From NCBI RefSeq assembly GCF_002135375.1, contig NZ_NEGH01000010.1, forward strand, positions 62,001-126,000: a DNA stretch of 64,000 nt, in the 5' to 3' direction. The DNA comes from Acinetobacter sp. ANC 4558 (lineage in GTDB: Bacteria > Pseudomonadota > Gammaproteobacteria > Pseudomonadales > Moraxellaceae). A model generated the notes under the pieces. It searched no databases. It was not told where the DNA came from and saw only the letters and a list, made by a program, of their open reading frames with translations. Made by a program: the position numbers and the translations under genes. Shown piece after piece: positions 11,086-29,802 of this stretch. Position 1 is the first letter of the stretch, and each line of letters opens with the position of its first letter.

Positions 11086-11766
11086 ATGAATAAAATACTT
11101 CCTGTCATTGTTTGCTGTTTCGCAATGAGTGCAAATGCTGTGAATGTGGGTGACATTACTTCTATTATTAATGCCAACGAAAAAACACTCGCGAAAGAAG
11201 TCGAAAATACCACTAATGTTGCACGATATATTGCTTTAAAAATAGAAAAAATATCCAATCCAACGGCAGAAGGTGTGGTCATTCCTTTAGCCAATAATGA
11301 AGTGCTTTCAACCCCCGCAGGTCTGGTTTTACCTGGCGGTGGACAAGATGTTTTTAAAATTTTCTATAATGGTCCCGAAGATGATCAAGAACGTTATTAT
11401 CGTCTTTCTTGGTTAGATGCCCCAGTATTAGGTGCAGAAGAAAATACAGCCAATAAAGGTGCTTTAGCCACCACTTCAGCGCTCATTAACACCATTTTAG
11501 TGGTCACACCGCGCAAAGATAAATTTGATTATCAGTATGCCAATGGAACAATTACCAATACTGGAAATGCCAGCTTTCGTATTGTTGCAGCTGGAACTTG
11601 TCTAGATAAAGCAAAAGATATTGATGGTAAAGGATGCCGGGAACGATACTATGTTATGCCGGGTAAATCAGCCACCTTAAAATTTACAGATTGGAATTCT
11701 CCTAAAACTCATCTCGGTGTGTGGTATGGCGGACAATATATCAATGTAAATAAAAATAAAAAGTAA
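11086..11766 (+). CDS. ecpB: Periplasmic pilus chaperone EcpB
   Basis: EcpB is the alpha-fimbrial chaperone that holds pilin subunits in the periplasm. The 226-residue protein has a short signal ending ANA and mature VNVGDITSIIN, like E. coli EcpB (VGDISSFMN). ERYYRLSWLDAP, TILVVTPRKDKFDYQYANGTITNTGN and YYVMPGKSA all have close E. coli counterparts. Two cysteines (TCLDK and GCRER) match the conserved pair. The gene begins 57 nt after ecpA, past the hairpin, and 5 nt before ecpC. E. coli has a second chaperone, EcpE, which is missing here, so EcpB must act alone or with an unlinked partner. Confidence 0.9.
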   Translation: MNKILPVIVCCFAMSANAVNVGDITSIINANEKTLAKEVENTTNVARYIALKIEKISNPTAEGVVIPLANNEVLSTPAGLVLPGGGQDVFKIFYNGPEDDQERYYRLSWLDAPVLGAEENTANKGALATTSALINTILVVTPRKDKFDYQYANGTITNTGNASFRIVAAGTCLDKAKDIDGKGCRERYYVMPGKSATLKFTDWNSPKTHLGVWYGGQYINVNKNKK

Positions 11767-11771
11767 GGCCT

Positions 11772-14288
11772 ATGAAAAGATATCTATTACCTGGTGTTTT
11801 GTTAAGTGGTTGCACTTTTGTGCCCATATTGTCTCATGCAAAAGGGGAGCGTATCGTTATTGGTGACTATACTTTTCCGACTGTATTGTCTCATGCTTTA
11901 CAGCAAGGTATTAGTATTCCTGTCTATTTAAAATATACCAAAGACACTGCAATTATAGATGACAAGAGTCAGCAGAAAGTTGCCGATGCAACCTTAATTT
12001 ATAAAAATGATCATTTATATGTAAAAACCATTGATTTTGAGTCTTATCAGCAAACCACTACACTGTCTTCAGAATTAAAACAAAACCTAGAGTCATTAGA
12101 CAAGAGCTTTAACCAACAGATGCAGTTGCAAGTGAATGATGATTCTGCATTAAAACTAGATTTAGAGTCTTTATATTTAGAACTTTTGGTTGATCGAGAT
12201 GCTTTGGAAACCACCTTTATTCCGCGCTCTGATATTCTAGAAAAAGCAACCTCGAATGAAGTCTCGTCAATCTTAAATTATCGCTTTGGTTATGCTTATA
12301 ATGAATATGATGATCGCTCAAACTCAACAAACTACTTAAGTTTAGATAGCATTAGTTCATTTAAAGAACATCATTTAAGTTTAAACGGTTCAATTTATGG
12401 TATTGGTAAAGGTTCATCGAATGCAGATCTCTATCGTGCCATCTATGAACGAGATTTTGAAGGTTATCGTCTTGCTGCGGGGATGATGGACACTTGGAGT
12501 ATGCAATCCATTGCCAGTCTTTCAGCCTTAAATACCAGTAAAATTTATGGGGTCACTTACGGTAATAAAAGTAATACCACCATTGAAGACAATAAACAGT
12601 CTTTAACGCCAATTGTGGTGTTCTTACCGAGTGCAGGAACGGTGCAAGTTTACCGAGATGGTCGTTTATTAAGTATCCAAAACTTTTCCATGGGTAGCCA
12701 TGAAATAGATACTTCAAACTTCCCATATGGTATCTATAATGTTGAACTGAAAACCATTATTGATGGACAAGAAACCACCTCGAATGCGCAAGTGAATAAG
12801 TCCTATGGTCGGAGCTCTAGTGTCACTGGAAAACTGGATTGGCAAGTTTTTGGGGGAATGCTGGAATATTATAAATCTGATCGTAGAGAACAGATTAGAG
12901 ATATTAATAAAAAAGACACCTGGTTAATGGGTGTCGCATTAGCAAAAAACTATAATGTCTTATCAGGTTTAGGCTTAAGAAGTACATTTTATGCTTTTGA
13001 TGAAAATGCAGTAGCCGAAACCCAAACCACCTTATCGGTCACACCGAGTACCAACCTGACGCTACAAACTATGTTGGCCAGTGATGGTTCTTATTTGGCA
13101 TCTACTTCTGTTGGTTATACATTGCCTAAAGGTTATGGGAGTGTCTGGGGTGCCTTTAACCGCAGTGAAGAAGGCAATAAACTCTATTTCACCCAAAGCC
13201 ACAGTTTTGATTTAGGTTTAAGTTTAAACCTCAAACAAGTGTATTCTAAACTAGGTTTTTTAAATACCAGTTATAATAAAGACTTGCAACGCGGTTATAG
13301 CAACACCAATATTGAATATTTTCAGAATGTATTTAATGGGCGTTATGCCAATGTGAGCATAAGAACTGGTGTACAAAAATCAACGTATGACAATCAACGC
13401 TCTGATAATGATAAATATATTTTTTTAGATTTAAGTTTACCAATTTCCAGATGGTTTAGTGCTGGAATTAACAGCCGAAATAGTAACCTCCTTGCCAATG
13501 CCAGTTATAAACAAAACTTTAGCAATAGTGTTGTGCAAAGTGTTGGCGTGGATTTAAATCAGGTGATTAAAAGAAAGAATGATTATTTAAATAGTGATGA
13601 TTTCTCAGCATCGGCTTATTTAGCGTACCAAACCAGTATTAATGCAGGAACCTTGTCAGGAAGTGCCTCATCACACAGCAAGAATTTCAACTACAGTACC
13701 CAAGGTTCGATTGCCAGCTCTAACTTTGATTTAGGACTTGGCAATAACAGTCATGGTTCAGGTATTTTGATTAAAACAGGTTTACCACGTGGTACCACCA
13801 TGTCCGCACTGATTAATGGACAAGATTATACTTTAAAAGGAAATCGTAACTTTATTCCGTTATCACCGTATAAAAAATACACAGTAGAATTAAGAAGTGA
13901 TAAGCATTCCATGGATAGTGTCAGCGTCGGTCAGGGTCGTAAGAGCACGGTAGTACTTTACCCAGGGAACGTCGCAAAACTTGAGCCTGAAATTAAACAA
14001 ATGGTGACGATCTTTGGACGGATTCGTTATCCAAATGGTGAGATTGCCGCCAATACACAGCTAAATAACCATATTGGTAAAACCAAAACTGATAATAACG
14101 GTGAGTTTTCTCTTGATATTGACAAGAAATATCCAGTAATTACTTTAATTCGTGACAATGGAGATATTTGTGAATCTGAATTGGCACTGAATAAAGAACA
14201 AGGTGTGGCTTGGTTAGGTGAAATTTCATGTGTATATAAAGTCGCGAGTCATAGTAAGAATAATTTAGAGGTACGTAATCATGATTAA
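11772..14288 (+). CDS. ecpC: Outer-membrane pilus usher EcpC
   Basis: EcpC is the outer-membrane beta-barrel through which pilin is assembled and secreted. The 838-residue length matches the E. coli usher (about 840). It has a signal peptide (cleavage near SHA-KG, residue 24), a periplasmic N-domain, a barrel with many YxxN/aromatic alternating strands, and a plug region around residues 280-340 (VQVYRDGRLLSIQNF, usher-like). Carboxypeptidase-like C-terminal domains follow, with TIFGRIRYPNGEIAANTQ and DNNGEFSLDI. It overlaps ecpD by 8 nt. The alpha-fimbrial ushers differ strongly from the FimD/PapC type, so the family call rests on context plus length and motifs. Confidence 0.88.
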   Translation: MKRYLLPGVLLSGCTFVPILSHAKGERIVIGDYTFPTVLSHALQQGISIPVYLKYTKDTAIIDDKSQQKVADATLIYKNDHLYVKTIDFESYQQTTTLSSELKQNLESLDKSFNQQMQLQVNDDSALKLDLESLYLELLVDRDALETTFIPRSDILEKATSNEVSSILNYRFGYAYNEYDDRSNSTNYLSLDSISSFKEHHLSLNGSIYGIGKGSSNADLYRAIYERDFEGYRLAAGMMDTWSMQSIASLSALNTSKIYGVTYGNKSNTTIEDNKQSLTPIVVFLPSAGTVQVYRDGRLLSIQNFSMGSHEIDTSNFPYGIYNVELKTIIDGQETTSNAQVNKSYGRSSSVTGKLDWQVFGGMLEYYKSDRREQIRDINKKDTWLMGVALAKNYNVLSGLGLRSTFYAFDENAVAETQTTLSVTPSTNLTLQTMLASDGSYLASTSVGYTLPKGYGSVWGAFNRSEEGNKLYFTQSHSFDLGLSLNLKQVYSKLGFLNTSYNKDLQRGYSNTNIEYFQNVFNGRYANVSIRTGVQKSTYDNQRSDNDKYIFLDLSLPISRWFSAGINSRNSNLLANASYKQNFSNSVVQSVGVDLNQVIKRKNDYLNSDDFSASAYLAYQTSINAGTLSGSASSHSKNFNYSTQGSIASSNFDLGLGNNSHGSGILIKTGLPRGTTMSALINGQDYTLKGNRNFIPLSPYKKYTVELRSDKHSMDSVSVGQGRKSTVVLYPGNVAKLEPEIKQMVTIFGRIRYPNGEIAANTQLNNHIGKTKTDNNGEFSLDIDKKYPVITLIRDNGDICESELALNKEQGVAWLGEISCVYKVASHSKNNLEVRNHD

Positions 14289-16127: not shown

Positions 16128-16412
16128 TTAATTAAACTGTTTGACCTCATCTAAAATATTTTCTAATAGACGCTCACAATGCTCATATTCTTGTAAAGAT
16201 TTATTCATTGAAAGTACTTCTTGCATGAGTTCTAATGCCACCATAATGGTTAATTTACTTGGCTCCATACGAGGCGCCTTTCGTCGTAATTCATTATAAC
16301 GTTCATTTAATAATTCAGCAGCACGTTCTAAGTCTGTAGAACCTTCTTTGGTTGTTGCTAAACGAAAACTATGCCCAAGAACTTTCAGTTCAACTGGAAT
16401 TTGTTCACTCAT
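16128..16412 (-). CDS. zapA: Cell division protein ZapA
   Basis: ZapA binds FtsZ and bundles its filaments at the division ring. The 94-residue product shows the family start (VELKVLGHSFRLATTKEG), the acidic/basic LNERYNELRRKAPRM region, and the C-terminal coiled coil MVALELMQEVLSMNKSLQEYE. Its start codon directly abuts the stop of the upstream coiled-coil gene, and GAGGAAG inside that gene's end serves as ribosome site. The two are therefore translationally coupled. The same zapA/ygfB/pepP neighbourhood is conserved in E. coli and Pseudomonas. Confidence 0.93.
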   Translation of the reverse strand: MSEQIPVELKVLGHSFRLATTKEGSTDLERAAELLNERYNELRRKAPRMEPSKLTIMVALELMQEVLSMNKSLQEYEHCERLLENILDEVKQFN

Positions 16413-16964
16413 TTATACTTCCTCATTATTTTCAGAAGGGTGGGCAAGTTGCTGAATTTCTTGGGTATAAGAATCTTGAGCCGTTCCTAAAATGCTTAAA
16501 CGTTGAATAATGGTTTCAACTTTTGCTTTTGCTAAATCATTTTTTTGTAATAAACGCTCACGCTCACTTTGAAGTGCTTGAATTTCATGTTGAGCATGGC
16601 GCTGATCATTTTGAAATTTTTCTTTCAATATGCGTAATTCATTACGTTCAGCAAGTATTTCTTGAAATCGATTTTTTAAATCTGTACAGCTTTTTTCTAA
16701 GCGATTATATCGATCTGCAAGAGCTGTAGCATCATCATTAATTTGCTTTAGCTTTGATTGCGTATTTTCTAGCTGCTCAGCGAGTTGATCACATTCTGTT
16801 TGCTTTTGCGTAATCGTATTGTTTTTTAAGTCAAGTTGAATCTTAAATTGTTGATTTGAATTTAATTTATCATCTTCTAGAGCATTGTTTTCAGACTCAA
16901 ATTGAGATAAACGTGATTTGAGCGCACTAATATGCGCTTGCAGACGCTGTAATTCTTCTAACAT
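16413..16964 (-). CDS. Coiled-coil protein coupled to zapA
   Basis: The protein (183 residues from the ATG at 16964) is nearly all predicted coiled coil. Heptad-like charged and Leu/Ile positions run from MLEELQRLQAHISALKSRL to about residue 160, with no membrane segment or signal. Small ZapB-like coiled-coil proteins are encoded beside zapA in other gammaproteobacteria, so a role at the division ring is a reasonable inference but is not shown. It is far longer than ZapB (about 80 residues). A TTG at 16991 would extend the frame by 9 residues, but I prefer the ATG. It is the first gene of a two-gene operon with zapA. Confidence 0.7.
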   Translation of the reverse strand: MLEELQRLQAHISALKSRLSQFESENNALEDDKLNSNQQFKIQLDLKNNTITQKQTECDQLAEQLENTQSKLKQINDDATALADRYNRLEKSCTDLKNRFQEILAERNELRILKEKFQNDQRHAQHEIQALQSERERLLQKNDLAKAKVETIIQRLSILGTAQDSYTQEIQQLAHPSENNEEV

Positions 16965-17726: not shown

Positions 17727-19049
17727 ATGAAGAAATTAGCTCAAATACATTTTGCACACCGTCGAGATCAACTTGCAGCAGAAATAGGATTACGCAGCAT
17801 TGCAATTATTGCAACGAATCCTGTCATGATGAGAAATAATGATGCAGATTATAAATATAGAGCTGATAGTAGTTTCTTTTATCTAACAGGTTTTGCTGAG
17901 CCTGAAGCGGTTGCAGTGATTGAAACATTTGATACGGAAGAGGAAGGATATTGTTACAGTTTATTTTGTCGTGAACGCAACAGAGAAATGGAAATATGGA
18001 ATGGATTTCGTGCAGGTTTAGATGGCGCACTGAATGACTATGAAGCAGATGAAGCTTATGTCATAGACCAGCTAGATGAAAAAATTCTTGAAAAGTTATT
18101 GAATAAAGATCAATTGTTTTATCGAATTGGTCATCAAGCAGAATTTGATACACAGATGACCGCTTTGCTTAAAAAAGCAGAAACAACGCATCGTCACGGT
18201 AGTGTACCTACACAAATTATTCAATTGAATCATATTGTGAATGAAATGCGTTTACATAAAACATCAGAAGAAATTGAATTAATGCAAATTGCATCAGACA
18301 TCAGTGCACAAGCACATACATGTGCAATGAAAAGTGTAAAAGTCGGAATGATGGAATATGCTTTGGAAGCAGAACTCAATTATATTTTTGGCAAAAATGG
18401 TTGCGTACCTTCATATAATAGTATTGTTGGAGGTGGCGAAAATGCATGTATTTTACATTATGTAGAAAATGATAAAGAACTCAAAGATGGCGACTTAGTT
18501 TTAATTGATGCTGCTTGTGAATATCAATTTTACGCATCAGATATTACACGAACATTTCCTGTGAATGGTAAATTTAGTGAAGCGCAAAAGGCGCTATATA
18601 ACGTGGTACTTCAAGCACAAATCGCTGCGATTGATGCTGTTCAAGTTGGTCATTCTTATCAAGAACCGCATCATGTAGCTGTCAAAATTTTAGTTCAGGG
18701 ATTACTTGATTTAGGAATTATGCAAGGGCAGTTGGAGGAAATTATCGAAACTGAACGTTATCGTCAGTTTTATATGCATGGTACAGGTCATTGGTTGGGA
18801 ATGGATGTACACGATGTTGGCTCCTATCGTATAGATGGAAAGTGGCGGACTTATGCAGAAGGAATGGTTGTTACAATTGAGCCAGGTTTGTATATTGCAC
18901 CAGATGATGACACAGTTGATAAACAATGGCGTGGAATCGGCATTCGTATTGAAGATGATATTGTGGTAATGAAAAATGGACCACATGTTTTAACTTCTGC
19001 AGTGGTAAAAACAGTTGAAGAAATAGAAGCCTTGATGATGATTTCTTAA
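17727..19049 (+). CDS. pepP: Xaa-Pro aminopeptidase PepP
   Basis: PepP removes the N-terminal residue from peptides with proline at position 2, using two manganese ions. The 440-residue length equals E. coli PepP. Metal ligands are visible: Asp in VLIDAACEYQ and SDITRTFP, His in YMHGTGHWLGMDVHDVG, Glu in TIEPGLYI, and Glu in GIGIRIEDDIVV. The N-terminal domain has YKYRADSSFFYLTGFAEPEA, typical of the family. In E. coli and Pseudomonas the next gene is ubiH. Here ubiH lies 10.7 kb further on, beyond two accessory modules. Confidence 0.95.
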   Translation: MKKLAQIHFAHRRDQLAAEIGLRSIAIIATNPVMMRNNDADYKYRADSSFFYLTGFAEPEAVAVIETFDTEEEGYCYSLFCRERNREMEIWNGFRAGLDGALNDYEADEAYVIDQLDEKILEKLLNKDQLFYRIGHQAEFDTQMTALLKKAETTHRHGSVPTQIIQLNHIVNEMRLHKTSEEIELMQIASDISAQAHTCAMKSVKVGMMEYALEAELNYIFGKNGCVPSYNSIVGGGENACILHYVENDKELKDGDLVLIDAACEYQFYASDITRTFPVNGKFSEAQKALYNVVLQAQIAAIDAVQVGHSYQEPHHVAVKILVQGLLDLGIMQGQLEEIIETERYRQFYMHGTGHWLGMDVHDVGSYRIDGKWRTYAEGMVVTIEPGLYIAPDDDTVDKQWRGIGIRIEDDIVVMKNGPHVLTSAVVKTVEEIEALMMIS

Positions 19050-19072
19050 AATTAAAAAAAATATGACTTGAG

Positions 19073-19105
19073 AACTTCTTCTGTTAAAAGGAGAAGTTTT
19101 TTATT
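19073..19105 (+). terminator. Intrinsic terminator after pepP
   Basis: A 7-bp stem (AACTTCT 19073-19079, AGAAGTT 19092-19098) is followed by a T-rich run. It lies 24 nt after pepP, so pepP is not co-transcribed with the accessory genes that follow. Confidence 0.8.
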
Positions 19106-19479
19106 TTCATCTTCTAATGATCAAATTACTTATGTTATAAAAATTATTAAATATATGAATATAAAAAATATTTATACTTTTCTGTATAGTGTCCAATTTT
19201 TATTGTTTTGATTTGAAATTTCTATTGAAATATCTAAAGGTATTAAAAAAAGTATTAATTTATGCATAAAAAGATATGGAAATTTCCATATAAAAATGGA
19301 ATATTAGGCGGATGCTGTTATGAATCAGGATTTTAAAAGCTCAAGACGGAATTTTTAAAGCGTCTGTTGATTAAAAATAGTGAGAATGATCAATTATTTT
19401 TACAACAGTCCTTTCCTATTTATATGGAGAAAATAACGACTTATGAGGAATATAAGTCGTCATACAAGGATTAAGTTAC
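19106..19479. other. Leader region of the MFS gene with two inverted repeats
   Basis: No gene is seen. It holds an 18-nt perfect palindrome at 19274-19291 (arms ATATGGAAA and TTTCCATAT) and a hairpin at 19436-19460 (ACGACTTAT with ATAAGTCGT). The hairpin lies 20 nt before the MFS start, just upstream of its AAGGA ribosome site. Between them, AAATGGAATA at 19294-19303 matches part of the AraC-type half-site found at 22004-22019. Confidence 0.55.
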
Positions 19480-20832
19480 ATGAACAGTTCTGTTAAGGAT
19501 CCAGTAGAATCTGGAAGTAAAAAATCGAATATTTATGCATGGTATGTCGTTTTACTATGTATGTTGGCCTATATTTTCTCATTTATTGATCGTCAAATTT
19601 TAGCGTTGATGATTGAACCCGTAAAAGCAGATTTAGATTTAACTGATACGCAATTCAGTCTTTTACATGGATTGGCGTTCTCATTATTTTATGCATTTAT
19701 GGGCTTGCCGCTCGCCTACTTAGCTGACCGTTTTTCACGACCAAAAATTATTGCTGTTGGTATTATTTTTTGGAGTGTGGCAACTGCAATGTGCGGCTTA
19801 AGTAAAAACTTTATTCAACTGTTCCTCAGTCGTATGGGGGTCGGAGTTGGTGAGGCTGCATTGTCGCCTGCAGCGTATTCAATGTTCAGTGACTTGTTTA
19901 AAAAAGATAAGCTTGGTCGAGCTGTCGCAGTTTATTCAATTGGCTCTTTTGTAGGCGGTGGTATTGCATTTTTAGTCGGTGGCTACGTCATTGGCTTGCT
20001 TAAAGATTTAACTTTAATTGAAATTCCATTATTTGGTGCAGTAAAAGCATGGCAAATGGCATTCATTTTAGTGGGCATCCCTGGTGTTTTTATTGGTTTA
20101 TTATTTATTTTGACTGTTCGTGATCCAATGCGTAAAGGGCAAAAGCTCAATGCAGATGGTCAGGTTGAAAAAGTAACAATGAAAGCTGCATTCACCTTTC
20201 TTAAAAAACATCGTACCACTTTTACTTGTCATTACCTCGGTTTTACATTTTATGCGATGGCGTTGTATTGCTTAATTAGTTGGTCACCTGCATTCTTTAT
20301 GCGTAAATTTGGTTTAACACCAACAGAAGCTGGTTATATGCTTGGAACGGTATTACTGGTTGCAAATACATTAGGTGTATTTGCTGCAGGTTGGTTGAAC
20401 GACTGGTTTATTCAAAAAGGACGTAAAGATGCTCCAATGATTACTGGTGTGATTGGTATTGTCGGTCTTGTTTTGCCATTAATTGCATTCACTCAAGTTT
20501 CTGAATTGTGGTTGGCAGTTACATTATTGGCACCAGCAATGTTTTTTGCTTCTTTTCCAATGCCAGTTTCTACAACTGCAATGCAAATGCTTGCACCCAA
20601 CCAATTACGTGCTCAAATATCAGCAATTTTCCTTTTAATTAGTAACTTAGTTGCTGTTGGTATTGGAACAACATTGGTGGCTTTGGTTACAGATAGAGTA
20701 TTTGATAATCCATTAATGGTTGGAACATCACTGTCTATCGTGGGTGGAATTTCATGTGTATTGTCGTTTATCTTACTGAAAAAAGGATGTAAAGCATTTA
20801 AGGACAGTATGCAACGTGAATATGCATCTTAA
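19480..20832 (+). CDS. MFS transporter, spinster-like subgroup
   Basis: A 450-residue major facilitator with about 12 membrane helices. The first loop (LPLAYLADRFSRPKIIAVG) and helix 4-5 region (SRMGVGVGEAALSPAAYSMFSDLF) place it with the spinster-like and anion/organic-acid carriers. The N-terminal 20 residues are polar and cytoplasmic. The position before an AraC regulator and two dehydrogenase genes suggests it imports the substrate of that pathway. No substrate can be read from the sequence. It has its own leader and a terminator after it, so it is a separate transcription unit. Confidence 0.85.
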   Translation: MNSSVKDPVESGSKKSNIYAWYVVLLCMLAYIFSFIDRQILALMIEPVKADLDLTDTQFSLLHGLAFSLFYAFMGLPLAYLADRFSRPKIIAVGIIFWSVATAMCGLSKNFIQLFLSRMGVGVGEAALSPAAYSMFSDLFKKDKLGRAVAVYSIGSFVGGGIAFLVGGYVIGLLKDLTLIEIPLFGAVKAWQMAFILVGIPGVFIGLLFILTVRDPMRKGQKLNADGQVEKVTMKAAFTFLKKHRTTFTCHYLGFTFYAMALYCLISWSPAFFMRKFGLTPTEAGYMLGTVLLVANTLGVFAAGWLNDWFIQKGRKDAPMITGVIGIVGLVLPLIAFTQVSELWLAVTLLAPAMFFASFPMPVSTTAMQMLAPNQLRAQISAIFLLISNLVAVGIGTTLVALVTDRVFDNPLMVGTSLSIVGGISCVLSFILLKKGCKAFKDSMQREYAS

Positions 20833-20852
20833 AATCGCTTTTCTTTCACTCA

Positions 20853-20886
20853 TTTATATGATGTATTAGGTAATACATCATATAAA
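20853..20886. other. Perfect inverted repeat after the MFS gene
   Basis: Two 16-nt arms (20853-20868 and 20871-20886; TTTATATGATGTATTA and its complement) flank GG. It lies 20 nt after the MFS stop and has no adjacent T-run. It could stabilise the 3' end or bind a protein. Confidence 0.5.
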
Positions 20887-20930
20887 GTAAGAATCAAAAG
20901 GAAGGATTCACTTTATATCTTTTTACACTT

Positions 20931-20956
20931 GCCCATTGATGACGAATGGGCTTTTG
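20931..20956 (+). terminator. Intrinsic terminator between MFS and AraC genes
   Basis: Stem GCCCATT (20931-20937) with AATGGGC (20945-20951), followed by TTTTGTATTT. It separates the MFS transcript from the regulator. Confidence 0.7.
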
Positions 20957-20991
20957 TATTTAGAACAAAAATATAATGAATGGAGTGAGTG

Positions 20992-21981
20992 ATGAATCAG
21001 TTGTCGAATTTGAACCATTTACATTACATGGATGAGTTTTTATTATTTAATTCAGATGATTATCAAACGATTAAAGATCAAATTAGTCATTATTTATGCC
21101 CTCATCAATTTGATGTTGATAGATTAACCACGTTAAATACACGCCTGAATGGATTTAGCTTCGGAAATTCTGCGTTATATGACTTAAAGTATAATGCACC
21201 CGTTGCCATTACTATCGATGAAGCATCGCAAAATTATTTATTTCGTATTACCTTAGAAGGCGAATGTGAGGTGGATAATGCACATAATCAGGTGCTTCAA
21301 TCTGTGGGTATTATGACGGTAACGCATCCGAATAGTAAGAACCGTATCGTTACAAATCAGCGTTGTCGGAATATTATTTTAAAGTTAACTCAGCAGGATG
21401 TCGAAACTCAATTATTTAAAATGTTAGGTTATACTTGTACTCATCCAGTGATATTTAACAGTGGATTATCTTGTACAAGTGAAGGATTAAACTCAATTAT
21501 AGAAACACTTAATTATTTATGTCATGCTTATTACAATATTCAAAATTGGAGTTTTATTTCAGGTAGTTTTACACAATATTTAATTGAACTAATTTTATTA
21601 AAAGTTCCCAATAATTATAGCCAGAAATTGAATGAGCAACGACAACTGGTTTTACCAAACTATATGAAAAAAGCACAACAATATATTCAAAATCATATTC
21701 AGGACAATATTGTATTGGCTGATTTGAGTGTCTTTTGTGGTGTGTCCAGTAGAACAATACAGAAAGGGTTTAATCAATATTTTCAACAAACACCGATTGA
21801 ATATATTCGAGATTTACGCGTTGAACGGATACATCAAGATTTGCTGAAAAGCCATGGCAATGAGACAGTAACTGATATTTTATTGCAGTATGGGATTCAA
21901 AGTTTTGGACACTTTTCTAATGTTTATAAAAAGCGATATGGTTGTTTACCTTCACAAACATTAAAAATGTACATGGCATAA
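20992..21981 (+). CDS. AraC/XylS-family transcriptional activator
   Basis: The protein is 329 residues from the ATG at 20992, which has GGAG at ideal distance; a GTG directly before it is less likely. The N-terminal part is a cupin-like AraC_binding_2 type sensor. The C-terminal 100 residues hold the two helix-turn-helix motifs: IVLADLSVFCGVSSRTIQKGF and VTDILLQYGIQSFGHFSNVYKKRYG, with the AraC signature. It is followed by a 111-nt gap that carries tandem direct half-sites, then by the opine-dehydrogenase-like gene. It therefore probably activates that operon, with the pathway substrate as inducer. Confidence 0.88.
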   Translation: MNQLSNLNHLHYMDEFLLFNSDDYQTIKDQISHYLCPHQFDVDRLTTLNTRLNGFSFGNSALYDLKYNAPVAITIDEASQNYLFRITLEGECEVDNAHNQVLQSVGIMTVTHPNSKNRIVTNQRCRNIILKLTQQDVETQLFKMLGYTCTHPVIFNSGLSCTSEGLNSIIETLNYLCHAYYNIQNWSFISGSFTQYLIELILLKVPNNYSQKLNEQRQLVLPNYMKKAQQYIQNHIQDNIVLADLSVFCGVSSRTIQKGFNQYFQQTPIEYIRDLRVERIHQDLLKSHGNETVTDILLQYGIQSFGHFSNVYKKRYGCLPSQTLKMYMA

Positions 21982-21982
21982 A

Positions 21983-22039
21983 TTTTCCAAGGGAATAGAT
22001 GACTTCGCAAATGGAATAGTCTTTTCGCATACGGGGGAG
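21983..22039 (+). promoter_or_regulatory. Tandem AraC-type half-sites
   Basis: Two 16-nt direct repeats of the form TTCGCA-N3-GGRRNAG lie at 22004-22019 (TTCGCAAATGGAATAG) and 22024-22039 (TTCGCATACGGGGGAG). A weaker third copy precedes them at 21983-21998 and shares its GGAATAG end. The spacing is 21 and 20 nt, two helical turns, as for AraC/XylS dimers. The last copy ends where a -35 element would fall for the TATGAT box at 22060-22065, the class II activator arrangement. Confidence 0.6.
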
Positions 22040-22059
22040 TACAAAGTAGATTGATCTTC

Positions 22060-22065
22060 TATGAT
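22060..22065 (+). promoter_or_regulatory. Candidate -10 box for the dehydrogenase operon
   Basis: TATGAT lies 17 nt downstream of GAGTAC (22037-22042), which is a poor -35 sequence. A weak -35 overlapped by an activator half-site fits an activator-dependent promoter. A strong AGGAGG ribosome site precedes the ATG at 22093. Confidence 0.4.
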
Positions 22066-22092
22066 GAGATAAGTTAATCAGGAGGATTTAAA

Positions 22093-23199
22093 ATGAAAAT
22101 TACAGTACTTGGTGGTGGTCATGGATGTTATGCAGCAGCTTTAGAAATGGCTGAGAAGGGGCATGACGTTGTATTATGGCGTCGTGATGCAGAAGCATTG
22201 AATGAACTTGCAGCGACTGGACAGCTTTTTGTTCGAGATTACCGTGGGGAGCGTTCAGTTACTGTTGGTTTTGAAAATAGTCAGATTAATTTACAAAATA
22301 ATTTAGAACAAGCGATTCATCATGCAGAGCTTATTATTATTCCTTTACCATCGACAACCCATCTCAATTTAGCACAACAAGCAGCACCTTATTTTAAAGA
22401 TGGGCAAGTTGTTTATTTACCACCAGGTACATTTGGTAGCTTTGTTTTTGCTCAAGCGATGAGAGAAGCAGGTAATCAAGCTCAAGTTGCATTTGCTGAA
22501 ACAGGAACACTCCCTTATTTAGTACGTAAACATGGGGTGAATCGTATTGTGGTGAGCGGTTATGCAACGCGTTTACCGACTGGTGTATTTCCATCTAACC
22601 TCTCTGAGCATGCATTTAAAATTTTGCAACAAGCGTACCCAAGTGTAGAGCCTATTGAAGATGGCTTAAGCGGCGCTTTGATGAATGCGGGCCCCATTAT
22701 TCATCCACCATTGATTATGATGAATGCTGGTCCTTTAGAACATTTTGAAGCTTGGGATATTCATAATGAAGGTACTCAACCTTCAATCCGCCGTGTGACA
22801 AGCGAGCTTGATGCTGAGCGGATGCGTGTTCGTGAAGCATTAGGGTATCCTGCACCCCATTTTCCTCTTGCGGATCATTATAATAAAGATGGTGAAGGTG
22901 ATGAGTGGATGTATGGTCGAGGGGCACATGGTAAGTTGACGGATAGTGGTGATTGGCGTGAAGATATCGACTTACAAGAACATCGTTATATGCTTGAAGA
23001 TACACGCTTAGGATTATCTTTAATTGTATCTGTAGGACGTTGGGCGGGTGTGCCGACTCCTGTTGCTGAAGGACTACTAAATATCGCATCTGCGGTGACA
23101 GGTCGAAATTTATATGCAGAAGGTCGCACTTTAGAAAATTTAGGATTGGCTGATAAGTCTAAACAGGAAATGTATGTGATTCTGCAACAAGGAGTTTGA
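22093..23199 (+). CDS. Octopine/nopaline dehydrogenase family oxidoreductase
   Basis: The 368-residue protein starts with a Rossmann fold (ITVLGGGHGCYAAALEMAEKGHDVVLW; Gly-rich loop at residues 7-11). It continues with a C-terminal helical domain of the NAD(P)-dependent opine dehydrogenase type. The IHPPLIMMNAG segment with His204 corresponds to the conserved HP...N motif of that domain. Family members reductively condense an amino acid with an oxo acid, or run the reverse oxidation. The gene has a strong AGGAGG ribosome site and is followed 1 nt later by a 3-hydroxyacyl-CoA-dehydrogenase-like gene, so the two act together. Substrate unknown. Catabolic use is inferred from the transporter and activator nearby. 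Confidence 0.8.
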   Translation: MKITVLGGGHGCYAAALEMAEKGHDVVLWRRDAEALNELAATGQLFVRDYRGERSVTVGFENSQINLQNNLEQAIHHAELIIIPLPSTTHLNLAQQAAPYFKDGQVVYLPPGTFGSFVFAQAMREAGNQAQVAFAETGTLPYLVRKHGVNRIVVSGYATRLPTGVFPSNLSEHAFKILQQAYPSVEPIEDGLSGALMNAGPIIHPPLIMMNAGPLEHFEAWDIHNEGTQPSIRRVTSELDAERMRVREALGYPAPHFPLADHYNKDGEGDEWMYGRGAHGKLTDSGDWREDIDLQEHRYMLEDTRLGLSLIVSVGRWAGVPTPVAEGLLNIASAVTGRNLYAEGRTLENLGLADKSKQEMYVILQQGV

Positions 23200-23200
23200 A

Positions 23201-24196
23201 ATGAATAAAATTCAACATGTTGCAGTGATTGGTGCAGGGAGAATGGGAAAAGCAATTGCCATTGCTTTTGCTTATGCGGGACTGCACGTGAAATTGGTTG
23301 ATGCGAAAGAACGTACTGAGTTGGAATTTAAGCATTATCAACAACAAGTGATACAAGATATTGTACAAGAGTTAGCACTGCTCAATAAAATTCAGTTTAT
23401 CCAATCGAATCAAAGTGAAGATATTTTAGATAATATTCAGGTGCTTGCTAAACAAGAGTCGATATCATTTTTACGGCAATGTGATTTAATTATGGAAGGC
23501 GTGCCTGAACAAACTCAGGCGAAACAAGATATCTTCACTTGGTTAGATCAATATATTTCTCCTAAATGTATTGTCGCGTCAACCACATCAACATTTTTGG
23601 TGACCGACATTGCTCAAATGCTGTCTCATCCAGAACGCGTTGTGAATGCACACTGGTTAAATCCTGCATATCTCATTCCTTTGGTTGAATTAAGTCGTTC
23701 GGAACAAACATCTAATGATATCGTTGAAAATTTGAAAGCATTTTTAACCCAAATCGGTAAAGTTGCTGTGGTGTGCAATGCGAAGGCTGGTTATATCGTA
23801 CCTAGAATTCAAGCATTGGCGATGAATGAAGCAGCACGCATGGTGGAAGAAGGTGTGGCTTCTGCGGAAGATATTGATATTGCAATTCGAACTGGGTTTG
23901 GGCTACGGTTTTCAGTTTTGGGCTTGCTTGAGTTCATTGATTGGGGCGGTGGTGATATTTTGTATTATGCATCGCAATATTTACAGCAAGAATTAGGTGA
24001 ACGTTATCGTACACCACAAATTATTGCAGACAATATGCAGAATAAACGAAATGGTTTACGTGAAGGTCAGGGGTTTTATGACTATGCGACAATGGATATA
24101 GACGCATATAAATTTAATGTGTTGAATACTTTTGCTCGTCGAATTGAAACTTCTCAATTAAAACCAATATTCAATGTTTTAAAAAGTGAATCGTGA
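23201..24196 (+). CDS. 3-hydroxyacyl-CoA dehydrogenase-like oxidoreductase
   Basis: A 331-residue NAD-dependent enzyme of the 3-hydroxyacyl-CoA/L-carnitine/L-gulonate dehydrogenase superfamily. It has GAGRMG at residues 11-16, His151 in VVNAHWLNPAYLIPLVELS, and AGYIVPRIQALAMNEAARMVEEGVAS at the domain junction with the usual Asn. The second domain has GLGLLEFIDWGGGDILYY-like sequence and a C-terminal GFYDY, as in short carnitine-dehydrogenase-type members. It begins 1 nt after the opine-dehydrogenase-like gene. Together they suggest oxidation of a hydroxy acid or amine intermediate. A strong terminator follows. Confidence 0.8.
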   Translation: MNKIQHVAVIGAGRMGKAIAIAFAYAGLHVKLVDAKERTELEFKHYQQQVIQDIVQELALLNKIQFIQSNQSEDILDNIQVLAKQESISFLRQCDLIMEGVPEQTQAKQDIFTWLDQYISPKCIVASTTSTFLVTDIAQMLSHPERVVNAHWLNPAYLIPLVELSRSEQTSNDIVENLKAFLTQIGKVAVVCNAKAGYIVPRIQALAMNEAARMVEEGVASAEDIDIAIRTGFGLRFSVLGLLEFIDWGGGDILYYASQYLQQELGERYRTPQIIADNMQNKRNGLREGQGFYDYATMDIDAYKFNVLNTFARRIETSQLKPIFNVLKSES

Positions 24197-24225
24197 AATT
24201 TTTATTTTTAAATTTCAAATGAAAT

Positions 24226-24258
24226 AAAAAAGCTCATCTATTATGGATGAGCTTTTTT
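24226..24258 (+). terminator. Intrinsic terminator after the dehydrogenase operon
   Basis: A perfect 13-bp stem (AAAAAAGCTCATC 24226-24238, GATGAGCTTTTTT 24246-24258) with a 7-nt loop. The A-tract and T-tract make it potentially bidirectional. Confidence 0.9.
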
Positions 24259-24703
24259 ATGATCAGATATGTTGGAATGCTTTAATGATAAAGTATTCCA
24301 TTCTCTTTATTAGAAGGCGTCATCTTTGAGATAAAGCACTGTTTATCTTTGAAATATATAATTATAATTTTTGTTTGATATACACTTTAATAATGAATAA
24401 TTTAGATTAATTATCTTTTTTTTAATCTAATCATTTGATTTATATCTATATTTATTTAATAAAATTAAATATTTTTAAAATAATAATATGGTGATATTAT
24501 GTGATTTATTTGGCATTTTTAATTGTAATTGATATTTTTTACCATTAATCTTTGGGGTTGTTTTTGCATTAATCTACAACTTTCAAAGATTTGAGTTCAA
24601 AACCTATTATTTTTAGATTAAAAATATTTTCAAAAATCTATTAAAAAATTCCAGAAAATGATGAGAATTTTTAAATAAAAAGATTTATAGAGTTAATAAT
24701 TAC
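24259..24703. other. AT-rich upstream region of the ABC exporter operon
   Basis: About 445 nt with no supported gene. It presumably holds the promoter of the three-gene exporter operon. No clear operator was recognised. Confidence 0.5.
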
Positions 24704-25765
24704 ATGAACATTAAAAAATATTTTACTTTTGGAGCTACGCTTGGTCTTTTTATTGCTGCCTATTTTATTTGGCAAAAGTTACATACTGTAACGCCTGATA
24801 CCATTCTGAGTGGTAATGGTCGCATTGAGGCGACTGAGGTGAATATCGCAAGTAAATCTGCGGGTCAATTAATAGAAGTCCTAGTGAAAGAAGGAGAGTT
24901 GGTAGAGGCAGGACAAATACTTGCGCGAATAAAAGTATCTGCTTTGGAAGCAAGAATTAAAGAAGCTGAAGCACAGCAGAAACAAGCTGAAGATGCAGTA
25001 AATATGGCTGAAGCACAAGTTGATATGAGGATAAGTGAGAAAGAGGTTGCAAAAGCAGTTGTTGATCAACGATTGACAGAGTTAACCGCTGCACAGAGAC
25101 GAGTAGAACGCCTTGAAGCTTTAGCAGAAGATGGAGCAGTATCCATTCAGCAACTCGATAATGAGCGTGTTGGCGTAAAAAGTGCATTTGCTGTTTTAGG
25201 CTCTGCAAAGTCACAAGTGAGAAGTGCTGACAGTGCTATTTTAGCAGCGCGTAGTCAAGTATCGAGTGCAAAATCTCAGGTTGAGGCGGCTAAAGCAACG
25301 GTTGAACGTTTAAATTATGATATGGAGGATGCACAGCTCAAAGCCCCCCTCAATGCGCGTGTACAGTTTCAAATTGCACAACCTGGCGAAATGGTCGCAG
25401 CAGGTGGGCGGGTGATGAATCTGATTGATTTATTTGATGTCTATATGACATTTTTTTTACCCGAAAAAATAGTGGGGCGTATTGCGATTGGTTCAGAAGT
25501 TCGTATTATTTTAGATACTGATAAAAATACAGTCATCCCTGCAAGAATATCTTTTATTGCTGATACAGCACAATTTACCCCGAAATCAGTGGAAACTGAA
25601 AATGAACGTCAGAGATTGATGTTTCGTGTGAAAGCAAATATTGATCCTCAGCATTTAGAAAATGGAATCGGAAATGTAAAAACAGGTCTACCTGGGGTTG
25701 CATATATCAAAATTGATCAACAAGCTGAATGGCCAATCTTCTTAAATGATCAGGTTGCATTGTAA
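24704..25765 (+). CDS. yhiI: HlyD-family membrane fusion protein, YhiI-like
   Basis: Periplasmic adaptor of an ABC-2 exporter. The 353-residue protein has an N-terminal membrane anchor (residues 7-23) and a biotinyl-lipoyl hairpin half ([35 protein letters not shown]). A long helical coiled coil follows, Ala/Gln/Glu-rich at about residues 75-205. The second lipoyl half ([24 protein letters not shown]) and a beta-barrel end complete it. Its stop overlaps the rbbA start by 1 nt (TAATG). The set matches E. coli yhiI-rbbA-yhhJ in order and lengths (about 355, 911 and 374 residues there). Confidence 0.88.
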
Positions 25766-28515
25766 TGCAACAAGATACTCAAGAATCGATTGTTGCTGAA
25801 GTCAATCATGTGAGCTTACATTATGGTAAGACAGTAGCATTAAAAAACGTATCTATTGCATTCCCCGCAGGGAAAATGGTGGGTTTGATTGGGCCAGATG
25901 GTGTAGGTAAATCAAGTCTTCTTGGCTTATTATCAGGCGCTAAAAAAATTCAAACAGGTACGATTCAAGTTTTGGGAATCAATCTTGCACATAAAAATGA
26001 TCGAAAAAAGATTTGTTTACATGTTGCTTATATGCCACAGGGTTTAGGTTCTAATTTATATAAGACTTTATCTATTGAGGAAAACTTGCAATTTATTGCT
26101 CGATTATGTGGGCATAATAAACAAGAACGTAGAAAAAAAATTGATGAACTCACAAAAAGTACGGATCTATATGCATTTTTAGACCGCCCAGCAGGTCAAT
26201 TATCTGGTGGAATGAAACAAAAACTTAGTTTATGTTGTGCGCTGATTCATGACCCTGATTTTTTGATTTTAGATGAACCTACCACAGGGGTAGCACCATT
26301 AGCACGAGCCCAGTTTTGGGATTTAATTCAGAAAATACGCAATGTACGCCCACAAATGAGTGTGCTTGTTGCTACGGCATATATGGATGAAGCCCAAAAA
26401 TTTGATTGGTTGGCCATGATGAATGATGGCGAAATTCTTAAAACAGGAACTCCTCAAGAATTATTAAATCTAACCAACAGCCAAAATTTAGAAGATGCTT
26501 TTATACAGCTTTTACCAGAGGATAGAAAACATGGTTATCAACCTGTTGTTATTCCTCCATTAGTGACGGATGATTCAGATGAATATGTAATAGAAGCACA
26601 AAATCTAACTGTTAAATTTGGAAATTTTACGGCTGTAAATCATGTCGATTTTAAAATTAAACGTGGTGAAATTTTTGGCTTTCTAGGCTCAAATGGGTGT
26701 GGAAAATCAACCACAATGAAAGTGCTGACAGGACTCTTAGAAGCGACTGAAGGCGAAACATGGTTATTTGGTCAGCCTATCGACGGGGGGAATATGAATA
26801 CTCGTCGTCGTATAGGATATATGTCACAATCATTTTCACTTTATACTGAGCTTACCGTTTTACAAAATCTAGTACTGCATGCGAAATTATTTCATATTGC
26901 GACAACAGAAATGAACTCTCGGGTTGAATTAATGTTACAACGATTCAATTTAGAAGATGTTAAAGATAAGTTACCACACGATTTACCTGTCGGGCTTCGA
27001 CAAAGGTTGTCTTTAGCCGTTGCATTAGTACACAACCCTGAAATCTTAATTTTGGATGAGCCAACTTCAGGTGTTGATCCGATTGCACGTGATAATTTTT
27101 GGTATTATTTGATTCAACTTTCACGTGATGATGGCGTAACAATCTTTATTTCTACGCATTTTATGAATGAAGCATCACGCTGTGATCGTGTTTCATTGAT
27201 GCATGCAGGATCAGTGCTCGATAGTGATTCGCCCGTGCAACTCATGAAAAAAAAGCAAACTGAAACATTAGAAGATGCATTTATTCAATATTTATTGGAT
27301 GCAGGCGCAGGTACGTTAACTTCATATGCATCAGAAAGTGAAAGCAACACAGTAACACGGATTAATGACAAACAAACGAATAGGTTGGCACACTTTAGTT
27401 TTTTAAGACTATTTAGTTATGCTTGGCGTGAGTCTTTAGAACTTGCTCGTGACCCTATTCGCGCAACTATGGCGTTGCTTGGGTCTATTCTTTTACTTTT
27501 TGTGATGAGTTATGGCATTAATTTAGATGTAGAAAATTTAACATTCGCCGTATTGGATCATGATCAAAGTAGTTTAAGTCAGAACTATACAATGAGTATT
27601 GCAAGTTCTCATTATTTTATGAAAAAACCATCATTACAAAATCATGACGATATTGATCGGCGTATGCGACGTGGGGATATTGCTTTAGCTATTGAAATTC
27701 CACCACATTTTTCTAGAGATATTGCACGTGGTGAGGCGGTTAAAATAGCTGCTTGGGTAGATGGAACGATGCCATCTCGTGCCGAAACGGTTCAGGGATA
27801 TATGAATGGCATTCATAGTCATTGGTTATTGAGTAAAGCCTTAGAGCAGACAGGTTATCATCAAGCCAATTTAGTGAATATCGAAACACGATATAGATAT
27901 AACCCTGATATTAGAAGTTTACCTGCAATGACAACAGCTATTTTGCCGTTATTATTACTTTTAATTCCAGCAACGTTAACAGCATTATCGGTTGTGCGAG
28001 AAAAAGAATTAGGTTCCATTGTCAATTTATATGTTACGCCTGTAACGCGTAGTGAATTTCTGATTGGTAAGCAAATTCCATATATTATTTTAGCCATGTT
28101 TAATTATTTTTTAATGTGCTTCATTATTGTGTATGTATTTAAAGTACCAATGAAAGGAGATTTTTTCGTTCTGACTATTGCGGCATTCCTCTTTTCAATT
28201 TTTGCAACAGGGACTGGAATGCTCGCATCGACATTAACGAAAAGCCAGATTGCGTCTTTATTTTTGGTTTTAATCGGTACGCTTATTCCTGTGACCCAAT
28301 TTGCTGGATTAATTAATCCAGTTTCTTCTCTTGAGGGATTTGCTCGGTGGTTTGGTGGCATTTATCCAGCAACAAATATGATCAATATTAGCCGAGGCGT
28401 ATTTAATAAAGGTTTAGGTTTTGAAGATTTATCCTCTCAGCTTTGGGTTATTATTATTTCAATACCTGTTGTCATACTGACAGCGATTGCCTTGTTAAAA
28501 AAACAGGAGTCGTAA
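25765..28515 (+). CDS. rbbA: Fused double-ATPase/ABC-2 permease RbbA-like
   Basis: A 916-residue fusion of two ABC ATPases and an ABC-2 membrane domain. The first ATPase has Walker A GPDGVGKS (residues 43-50), signature LSGGMKQKL and ILDEPTTGV. The second has GSNGCGKST (about residue 310), a signature degraded to LPVGLRQRL, and [10 protein letters not shown]. The membrane part runs from about residue 560, with a large external loop and then five helices ([29 protein letters not shown] is typical ABC-2). E. coli RbbA was described as a ribosome-associated ATPase, but the membrane fusion and the adaptor gene argue for export. Neither activity can be shown here. Confidence 0.9.
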
Positions 28516-28516
28516 C

Positions 28517-29644
28517 ATGATAATCAGAAAAATACAAAATATTTTCCAATTAGGACGCAAAGAACTATGGAGCTTATGGCGTGATCCAATAATGCTAATC
28601 TTAATTTTATATACATTCACGATTTCAGTGTATATCGCAGCAACAGCAATTTCGGATACGCTTTATAATGTTCCTGTTGCTATTGTAGATGAAGATCAAT
28701 CACTTTTATCAGAGCGAATAACATCTGTATTTTATGAACCTTATTTTGATCGAAAAATAACAGAACTTAATTTGATCGATTCTGGAATGAATACTGGAGA
28801 ATATGCATTCTCAATCGATATTCCTCCGAAGTTTAATGAAAACATTTTAGCTGGAAATCCAACCGCAATACAGGTCAATGTCGATGCAACTCGGATGAGC
28901 CAAGCGATGTCAGGTGCAGGTTATATTCAACATATTATTCAATCGGAAGTGAGAGAATATATTCAACGTTATCGTGCTTTTGAAAATGTTGCCGTGGAGC
29001 TAGAGTTGCGAGCACGATATAACCAAACCTTAGATTATAAATGGTTTGGTAGCGTGATGCAGATCATTAATAATGTTGCCATGTTATCGATTGTATTAAC
29101 AGGTGCTGCTTTAATTCGTGAGCGTGAACATGGAACCATTGAACATTTAATGGTGATGCCAATTACATTTCTTGAAATTATGGTAGCAAAAATTTGGTCA
29201 ATGAGTCTGGTTGTTTTATGTGCCGCTTTTTTAGGTATTAAATTAATTGTTGAGATGGTACTTACCATACCTATTGAGGGCAGTTTATGGTTGTTTTTCT
29301 TTGGTGTATTACTCACCTTGTTAGCAACAACTTCTCTCGGTATTTATTTGGCTACCATTTCGAAATCAATGCCCCAATTTGGTTTATTGACAATGCTTAT
29401 TATTATACCATTGCAAATGCTTTCTGGTGGATCAACTCCTAGAGAAAGTATGCCAGAGGTTGTACAGCATATTATGCTTATGGCACCAACCACACATTTT
29501 GTGTCATTAGCCAAAGCAATTTTATATCGAAATGCAGGAATAGAAGTTGTTTGGCCTACTTTTTTATGGTTAATCGTCATCGCAAGTATTTTTTTCTATA
29601 TTTCATTAAAAAGGTTTAAATCTACCATTCATACAATGGCTTGA
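28517..29644 (+). CDS. yhhJ: ABC-2 transporter permease YhhJ-like
   Basis: A 375-residue ABC-2 permease with one N-terminal helix (about residues 25-45), an extracytoplasmic domain (residues 50-170), and five C-terminal helices. The last part contains LTGAALIREREHGTIEHLMVMPIT, the conserved ABC-2 signature. It starts 1 nt after rbbA with AGGAG at the junction. It probably pairs with the membrane half of RbbA to make the exporter channel, with the YhiI-like adaptor linking to an outer-membrane factor encoded elsewhere. The cargo is unknown. Confidence 0.9.
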   Translation: MIIRKIQNIFQLGRKELWSLWRDPIMLILILYTFTISVYIAATAISDTLYNVPVAIVDEDQSLLSERITSVFYEPYFDRKITELNLIDSGMNTGEYAFSIDIPPKFNENILAGNPTAIQVNVDATRMSQAMSGAGYIQHIIQSEVREYIQRYRAFENVAVELELRARYNQTLDYKWFGSVMQIINNVAMLSIVLTGAALIREREHGTIEHLMVMPITFLEIMVAKIWSMSLVVLCAAFLGIKLIVEMVLTIPIEGSLWLFFFGVLLTLLATTSLGIYLATISKSMPQFGLLTMLIIIPLQMLSGGSTPRESMPEVVQHIMLMAPTTHFVSLAKAILYRNAGIEVVWPTFLWLIVIASIFFYISLKRFKSTIHTMA

Positions 29645-29802
29645 TTTTATGGGTAAGTAGATTTGATGTGTATTTTAGTCAGTGAGTGTACAGATGAATA
29701 GGGCTGATCATGTCAAAATGATGAACCTTCATGTAATATAAAACCACTTAATATTATAAAAATCTGTCGCGACATTACGGTCACACTAGTGAGGATAAAA
29801 GC

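Follow-up and report, generated by a model that had tools for sequence, protein, structure and literature searches.

A four-gene module encoding an opine-dehydrogenase-fold and a hydroxyacyl-dehydrogenase-like enzyme accompanies bacterial auxin degradation genes and may feed their pathways

Results

Within a 64,000-nucleotide stretch of the Acinetobacter sp. ANC 4558 genome (contig NZ_NEGH01000010.1, positions 62,001 to 126,000; hereafter the window), four plus-strand genes encode, in order, a major facilitator superfamily (MFS) importer, an AraC-family activator, an oxidoreductase of the octopine/nopaline dehydrogenase family (ODH) and a hydroxyacyl-dehydrogenase-like enzyme of the PRK08269 family (HADH). 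We find that this module keeps company with genes for the degradation of the auxin indole-3-acetic acid (IAA) across many bacteria, and we are confident that its tie to auxin catabolism is strong. On balance, we favor the reading that the four genes constitute a catabolic module at the periphery of auxin breakdown, controlled by the AraC protein, in which two NAD(P)-dependent oxidations would lead toward IAA.

The MFS importer is encoded at 19480-20832 (450 amino acids; Pfam MFS_1, 4e-47), the AraC_binding_2-type activator at 20989-21981 (330 amino acids, with a GTG start as listed; Pfam AraC_binding_2, 1e-16, and HTH_18, 2e-18), ODH at 22093-23199 (368 amino acids) and HADH at 23201-24196 (331 amino acids), with intergenic gaps of 156, 111 and 1 nt. 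A preliminary description of this DNA had named the same four genes and the single nucleotide between the last two, and Pfam confirms all four. ODH was assigned from Pfam, the Protein Data Bank (PDB), alignment and fold, and HADH from Pfam, NCBIfam and alignment.

The pairing of ODH with HADH is more than chance. A scan of named genomes for the module gave 83 matches, the best 80 of which correspond to 80 loci, 23 in Acinetobacter and 57 elsewhere; these span Acinetobacter, Pseudomonas, Paraburkholderia, Burkholderia, Halomonas, Amycolatopsis, Saccharopolyspora, Luminiphilus, Rhodospirillales, Azoarcus, Rhizobium and Rhodobacterales, among others. In 79 of the 80 loci, from Acinetobacter to Actinobacteria, the two genes are next to each other on the same strand, which bears out the earlier supposition that these enzymes of different families belong together. 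The exception is the locus of Acinetobacter colistiniresistens NIPH 2036 (L080), where an insertion-sequence-like insert (11200-12500), judged from sequence, splits HADH. In three Luminiphilus loci (L092, L094 and L110) ODH and HADH are fused in one reading frame. The type of importer differs among loci, being MFS, MFS with an OprD porin, tripartite ATP-independent periplasmic (TRAP) or ATP-binding cassette (ABC), and the OprD porin accompanies the module in many Pseudomonas. Copies of the MFS protein are 82-90% identical in 22 of the 23 named Acinetobacter loci, 70% identical in the remaining one (L045) and 66-68% identical in those of the Pseudomonas loci examined that hold it.

The association with auxin genes is most apparent in the two large genera. 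Among 149 Acinetobacter genomes, ODH and iacA occur together in 28, iacA alone in 31, neither in 90 and ODH alone in none; likewise, among 199 Pseudomonas genomes, with iacA called at E 1e-60 or better (42/199 genomes), the corresponding counts are 20, 22, 157 and none, and the Fisher p-values of 4e-14 and 4e-16, respectively, ignore the relatedness of species and are hence optimistic. ODH and iacA lie no more than 6 kb apart in 26 of the 28 Acinetobacter carriers (the exceptions are the genome of the window itself and G034, at 11.5 kb) and no more than 15 kb apart in 8 of the 20 Pseudomonas carriers. The Pseudomonas IacA homologues comprise a type of 59-62% identity, a type of 44-49% identity and one fragment of 42% identity, and the 44-49% type is part of a complete iacA-B-H-C-D-E-F set in each of the three regions examined.

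In all 23 named Acinetobacter loci, a MarR gene and iacH-A-B-C-D-E come after the module; iacF is also present in 21 of them and iacG in 20, the remainder running off the stretch. Since the NCBIfam matches of the eight iac proteins of one such locus (L031) include no Iac-named model, the iac genes were named from their order, from the products annotated on the plasmid and from the match of the MarR protein. The MarR protein of that locus is closest in the PDB to 7l1i (E 7e-79), followed by 7kua and 7l19, which are MarR structures of A. baumannii, P. putida and Enterobacter soli according to the available part of PMC11630574 (see also PMC9613470). Plasmid pYUSHP14-1 (NZ_CP090068.1, L160) of Acinetobacter sp. 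SH20PTE14, from pig manure, bears both the module, with an ODH 91.3% identical to that of the window, and an iac cluster that looks complete. Genes for auxin degradation can thus reside on plasmids.

The module of the window is not beside iac, the iac genes of this genome being on other contigs. One contig (C12, L157) ends in marR-iacH-iacA-iacB, with iacB in part; a second (C1, L201) holds iacD-E-F-G behind a run of N; and a third (C28, L158) holds a second, partial iac set. Because the iacB and iacD stretches are 99% identical between the two sets, a duplicated auxin cluster probably broke the assembly.

Outside Acinetobacter, a search for IacA in 46 of the 57 loci, 26 of them Pseudomonas (left out were L073, L075, L077, L082, L086, L094, L095, L097, L103, L106 and L107), revealed a strong homologue in 38 of the 46, including all 26 Pseudomonas, a tally that leaves out two weak matches of 26-27% identity. 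Linkage of the module to iac was observed in Halomonas (L084), Rhizobium (L102), Paraburkholderia (L081, L085, L087 and L088) and Amycolatopsis, in the last at 12 kb. Among the eight carriers that have no strong IacA, Antarcticimicrobium (L178) and Azoarcus indigens (L179) possess a full set of the iad type and a Luminiphilus (L181) a partial one. The reference for this comparison was Paracoccus saliphilus (L163), in which ODH, HADH and TRAP genes lie directly behind an iadC-to-iadJ-like set encoding a reductase, ring-hydroxylating alpha and beta subunits, an AMP-binding protein, a thiolase, a short-chain dehydrogenase/reductase (SDR), a cyclase and another SDR. Its ring-hydroxylating alpha subunit is closest in the PDB to 9o71 (E 5e-172) and 7yls (E 3e-170), both of which we take to be IadD. 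The order of the genes matches that of iadC to iadJ as given in the available part of PMC12633357.

The opine (octopine/nopaline) dehydrogenase family is defined by a catalytic His-Asp pair, and ODH has this pair along with the domain (Octopine_DH, PF02317, E 1e-29) and the fold: H204 and D303 are invariant in 20 aligned sequences and align with the His and Asp of 1bg6, an N-(1-D-carboxylethyl)-L-norvaline dehydrogenase. This entry is both the closest PDB sequence (E 2e-33, 26% identity) and the best fold match to the predicted model of ODH (mean predicted local distance difference test score, pLDDT, 86), with Z 38.5 and a root-mean-square deviation of 2.6 over 336 aligned residues. The first 12 rows of the fold search are all opine dehydrogenases, and next come ketopantoate reductases and D-mandelate dehydrogenase at Z 24 to 19 (D-mandelate dehydrogenase: Z 22.3, rank 18). 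Given that the likeness of fold reaches these last two enzymes, opine chemistry cannot be deduced from it. With the norvaline dehydrogenase nearest in sequence as well as in fold and its His and Asp conserved, an opine-type reaction is nonetheless conceivable; ODH would then split an opine or N-carboxyalkyl amino compound, perhaps an indolic one, and HADH would oxidize the product. We consider this quite unlikely, since the genes that recur beside the pair are auxin genes and the fold is not peculiar to opine enzymes, and the opine-like substrate first suggested for the window finds no opine-use neighbor in five annotated regions. A Burkholderia cenocepacia plasmid stretch that carries no annotation was left out of these. 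The residues W29-R30-R31, which follow strand 2 of ODH, are invariant in the 20 aligned sequences, so the cofactor of ODH is probably NADP(H). In 1bg6, Asp-Ile stands where ODH keeps the invariant Arg pair, which would suggest a different cofactor for the two enzymes.

HADH matches the Pfam domains 3HCDH_N (6e-47) and 3HCDH (8e-21) and scores above the NCBIfam cut-off of PRK08269 (NF006125, "3-hydroxybutyryl-CoA dehydrogenase"; 458.5 bits vs 427), a family for which we know of no tested substrate. H151, N154, E163 and D34 are invariant in 17 aligned sequences, and since D34 stands at the end of strand 2, the cofactor is probably NAD(H). Both NCBIfam carnitine dehydrogenase models score HADH far under their cut-offs (120 bits vs 592 and 102 vs 414), and thus the earlier label "carnitine-dehydrogenase-like" was too specific. 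Carnitine-type or general 3-hydroxyacyl-CoA metabolism, which membership of HADH in that superfamily might recommend, is extremely unlikely in view of these scores, on which we rejected both the carnitine and the plain fatty-acid readings; a carnitine pathway also finds no carnitine-named gene in the five annotated regions. Of the breakdown pathway of an unrecognized kind that was proposed there, what stands is a catabolic unit with an importer and a regulator, possibly for a hydroxy compound; an opine or carnitine character is not supported.

The apparent difference in cofactor (W29-R30-R31 in ODH, D34 in HADH) and the fusion of the enzymes in one lineage would also suit a stereo-inverting couple, in which one enzyme oxidizes an aromatic hydroxy acid of one handedness to its keto acid and the other takes the opposite enantiomer. 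The relatives of HADH act on beta-hydroxy rather than alpha-hydroxy acids, and we regard such a couple as improbable.

The AraC protein finds its best NCBIfam match in AndR, an anthranilate regulator (equivalog NF041686), at 123.5 bits, below the cut-off of 350. AraC activators of the XylS/AndR type are associated with direct repeats that are spaced by some two turns of the helix and lie close to the promoter they control, and the locus has direct repeats of this kind, with a period of 20 bp. The repeat, at 22004-22037 on the plus strand between AraC and ODH (half-sites TTCGCAAATGG and TTCGCATACGG), is the top site within the 64 kb (score 37.1, with the second at 4.5) and is probably the AraC site of ODH-HADH. 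The period-20 repeat is kept in 22/23 Acinetobacter and 27/27 Pseudomonas loci with an AraC protein at least 44% identical (shuffles, 1% and 3%) and is present in 5/30 other loci (shuffles, 4%), the pattern having been defined after the sequences were viewed and controlled with other periods and shuffles. It also occurs upstream of the OprD porin in both Pseudomonas loci scanned, and we did not find it at iac in three stretches of the window's own genome or in three Pseudomonas clusters. Thus the porin gene and the ODH-HADH pair seem to share a single AraC regulon, apart from the MarR-controlled iac genes.

Two kinds of neighboring gene give hints of the substrate. The TRAP binding protein encoded behind HADH in Halomonas (L084) is closest to 4pgn (E 9e-71) and 4nap (E 1e-70), and that of Antarcticimicrobium (L105) is closest to 4mni/4mnc of Polaromonas (Z 35.7). 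We take the ligand of 4mnc/4mni to be benzoylformate and those of 4pgn/4pgp/4nap to be indole pyruvate, IAA and D-tryptophan. Entry 4nap is Dde_0634, which binds IAA according to a published passage. Two Pseudomonas loci (L188 and L191) carry, between the porin and ODH, a gene of the FMN_dh (alpha-hydroxy-acid dehydrogenase) family, whose product has as its first PDB matches a double-length entry for L-lactate oxidase (E 2e-100) and an (S)-mandelate dehydrogenase (E 2e-81), the latter being the best row with a single full-length stretch. The fold match of ODH to D-mandelate dehydrogenase likewise hints at an aromatic acid. The same two loci have a NIPSNAP-family gene behind HADH (16182-16802 and 1821-2441, respectively), which recurs in seven of the fetched loci searched. 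In Rhodospirillales metagenome-assembled genomes (MAGs; L096, 4272-4799; L097; L099), a cupin gene ends right at the start of ODH. We also sought a substrate in the alphaproteobacterial neighbors and abandoned this approach: cupin, methionine-synthase-like, CoA-ligase, hydantoinase-like and transporter genes, mostly judged from sequence letters and some by Pfam, vary by lineage and point to no common substrate.

The surroundings of the module in the window offer some further features. The module lies behind pepP, and a set of HlyD/ABC exporter genes (24704-29644) lies between it and a UbiH/VisC pair. The UbiH gene is found downstream of pepP within 1.5 kb in 13 of 21 other Acinetobacter genomes, and the MFS gene is absent from the pepP site in all 21, a comparison that leaves out the window's own genome. 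Because both the module and the exporter set lie between genes that are close in 13 of the 21 relatives, the pepP to ubiH/visC interval (19050-29800) is possibly an insertion hot spot. Terminator-like hairpins matching the consensus occur at 19070-19101, between MFS and AraC (20931-20951, plus strand) and behind HADH (24224-24260, listed on the minus strand, 15 pairs); such hairpins are not enriched at the locus (4 found vs 3.3 expected from shuffles). A conserved palindrome was noticed upstream of MFS, and Rfam gave no match within 18500-25500.

Discussion

We propose that the importer, MFS here and TRAP or ABC elsewhere, with an OprD porin in many Pseudomonas, would take up an indole-type carboxylate, which the AraC protein would sense and, by binding the repeat at 22004-22037, answer by switching on ODH-HADH. 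ODH, probably NADP-linked, and HADH, probably NAD-linked, would then work in sequence on the side chain, handing the intermediate from one to its neighbor, and the product, IAA or another intermediate common to the iac and iad routes, would be degraded by the auxin cluster. Gene content and the pairing of ODH with HADH are certain, and the data also show their fusion, the tie to iac and iad and the conservation of the repeat. The direction of flow, the binding by AraC and the cofactors are what we infer; flow toward IAA seems to us somewhat likely. As far as the available parts of the published accounts go, iac takes IAA to catechol and iad takes it to anthranilate by different enzymes, and the two have IAA and dioxindole-3-acetic acid in common. 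Since the module goes with either route, it most simply delivers one of these shared compounds.

Among indolyl alpha-hydroxy and alpha-keto acids, indole-3-lactate is our favored guess for the substrate, though a doubtful one. We put forward, tentatively, an undescribed pathway in which enzymes of the ODH and HADH folds turn an auxin precursor or storage form such as indole-3-lactate into IAA, feeding either aerobic route. In the available part of PMC7225977, neither indole-3-lactate nor indole-3-pyruvate supports growth of P. putida 1290, and its IacA oxidizes indole-3-lactate to a product that IacE does not convert; thus the core pathway alone may not suffice for this compound.

Several observations weigh against this proposal. 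Its main weakness is that no decarboxylation step is visible in the module, and the conversion of indole-3-lactate to IAA needs one. The hints of a substrate are indirect and its assignment is weakly supported: the TRAP match was made in species other than that of the window and might reflect uptake of IAA itself, and the alpha-hydroxy-acid dehydrogenase gene is present in only two of the loci fetched. Physical linkage is also uneven, with an iacA or iacC homologue (at least 40% identity) inside the 21-kb stretch in only 6 of the 57 non-Acinetobacter loci, and the AraC-type repeat was not seen at the iac genes scanned. Five MAG carriers (G204, G206, G207, G208 and G211) show neither iac nor a convincing iad set, and in Paraburkholderia largidicola, Azospirillum thermophilum and Pseudooceanicola algae the annotated stretches contain the module with no iac or iad genes. 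Lastly, 31 of the 59 iacA-bearing Acinetobacter genomes do not have the module, which is thus not part of the core pathway; if these strains degrade IAA, this argues that the module would not be needed for growth on IAA generally.

This last point also bears on an alternative in which the two enzymes work further down, on an intermediate or fragment of both auxin routes (for example at the level of dioxindole-acetate, or on the side chain), and raise their yield without giving access to a new substrate. Both routes pass through dioxindole-3-acetic acid, the iac steps beyond it were unknown in 2020 according to the part of the literature available, and the module lies beside iac in Acinetobacter, all of which would suit such a role. 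A downstream function fits less well with a module that comes with an importer of its own and an AraC-type site that was not seen at iac, that is not within 15 kb of iacA in 12 of 20 Pseudomonas and that so many iacA-bearing Acinetobacter do without, and we consider it unlikely.

If the two enzymes do turn an auxin precursor or storage form into IAA, this activity would be new to both of their families and would give microbes a new way into the control of plant hormone levels. The degradation of auxin by bacteria shapes root growth, and the loci described in the auxin papers examined are for IAA itself. The nesting of the module in iac-bearing genomes of two large genera, and its occurrence with iac or iad in Actinobacteria and further Proteobacteria, suggests that such bacteria eat another compound as well. 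The anonymous annotation "octopine dehydrogenase" and "3-hydroxybutyryl-CoA dehydrogenase" thereby becomes a short list of testable indole substrates.

The literature searched, which was one open-licence collection only, yielded no account of the module. The word "octopine" is absent from the main texts of PMC8383072, PMC9613470, PMC11434297, PMC12462448, PMC10374108, PMC12633357, PMC7225977 and PMC11373566 and appears twice in PMC9973260, both times for the regulator OccR; "opine" is absent from the main text of PMC11630574.

Among known systems, the iac clusters of Marinomonas (PMC11373566, available part) resemble the present case in that they too are an iac locus extended by oxidoreductases, with a gene for alpha-hydroxy-acid oxidation in some clusters and a 2-dehydropantoate 2-reductase gene. 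Those accessory enzymes belong to families other than ODH and HADH, and neither "octopine" nor "hydroxybutyryl" occurs in the main text of that paper. As in Marinomonas, a ketopantoate-reductase-family gene, together with a class II aldolase gene, lies near Pseudomonas iac (L192, 10900-12669; L148, 17166-18934), and this is a second unexplained accessory set of iac. The iad cluster of Variovorax CL14 has its counterpart as the companion of the module in Paracoccus, Antarcticimicrobium and Azoarcus and, less completely, in one Luminiphilus, and differs in that the iadC-K2 genes, as the available part of PMC12633357 presents them, do not include ODH or HADH. The iac cluster of P. putida 1290 and A. 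baumannii neighbors the module and constantly accompanies it in the Acinetobacter carriers examined, and the module is set apart from it by lying outside the iac genes, by being absent in 31/59 iacA-bearing Acinetobacter and by having its own importer and AraC-type site.

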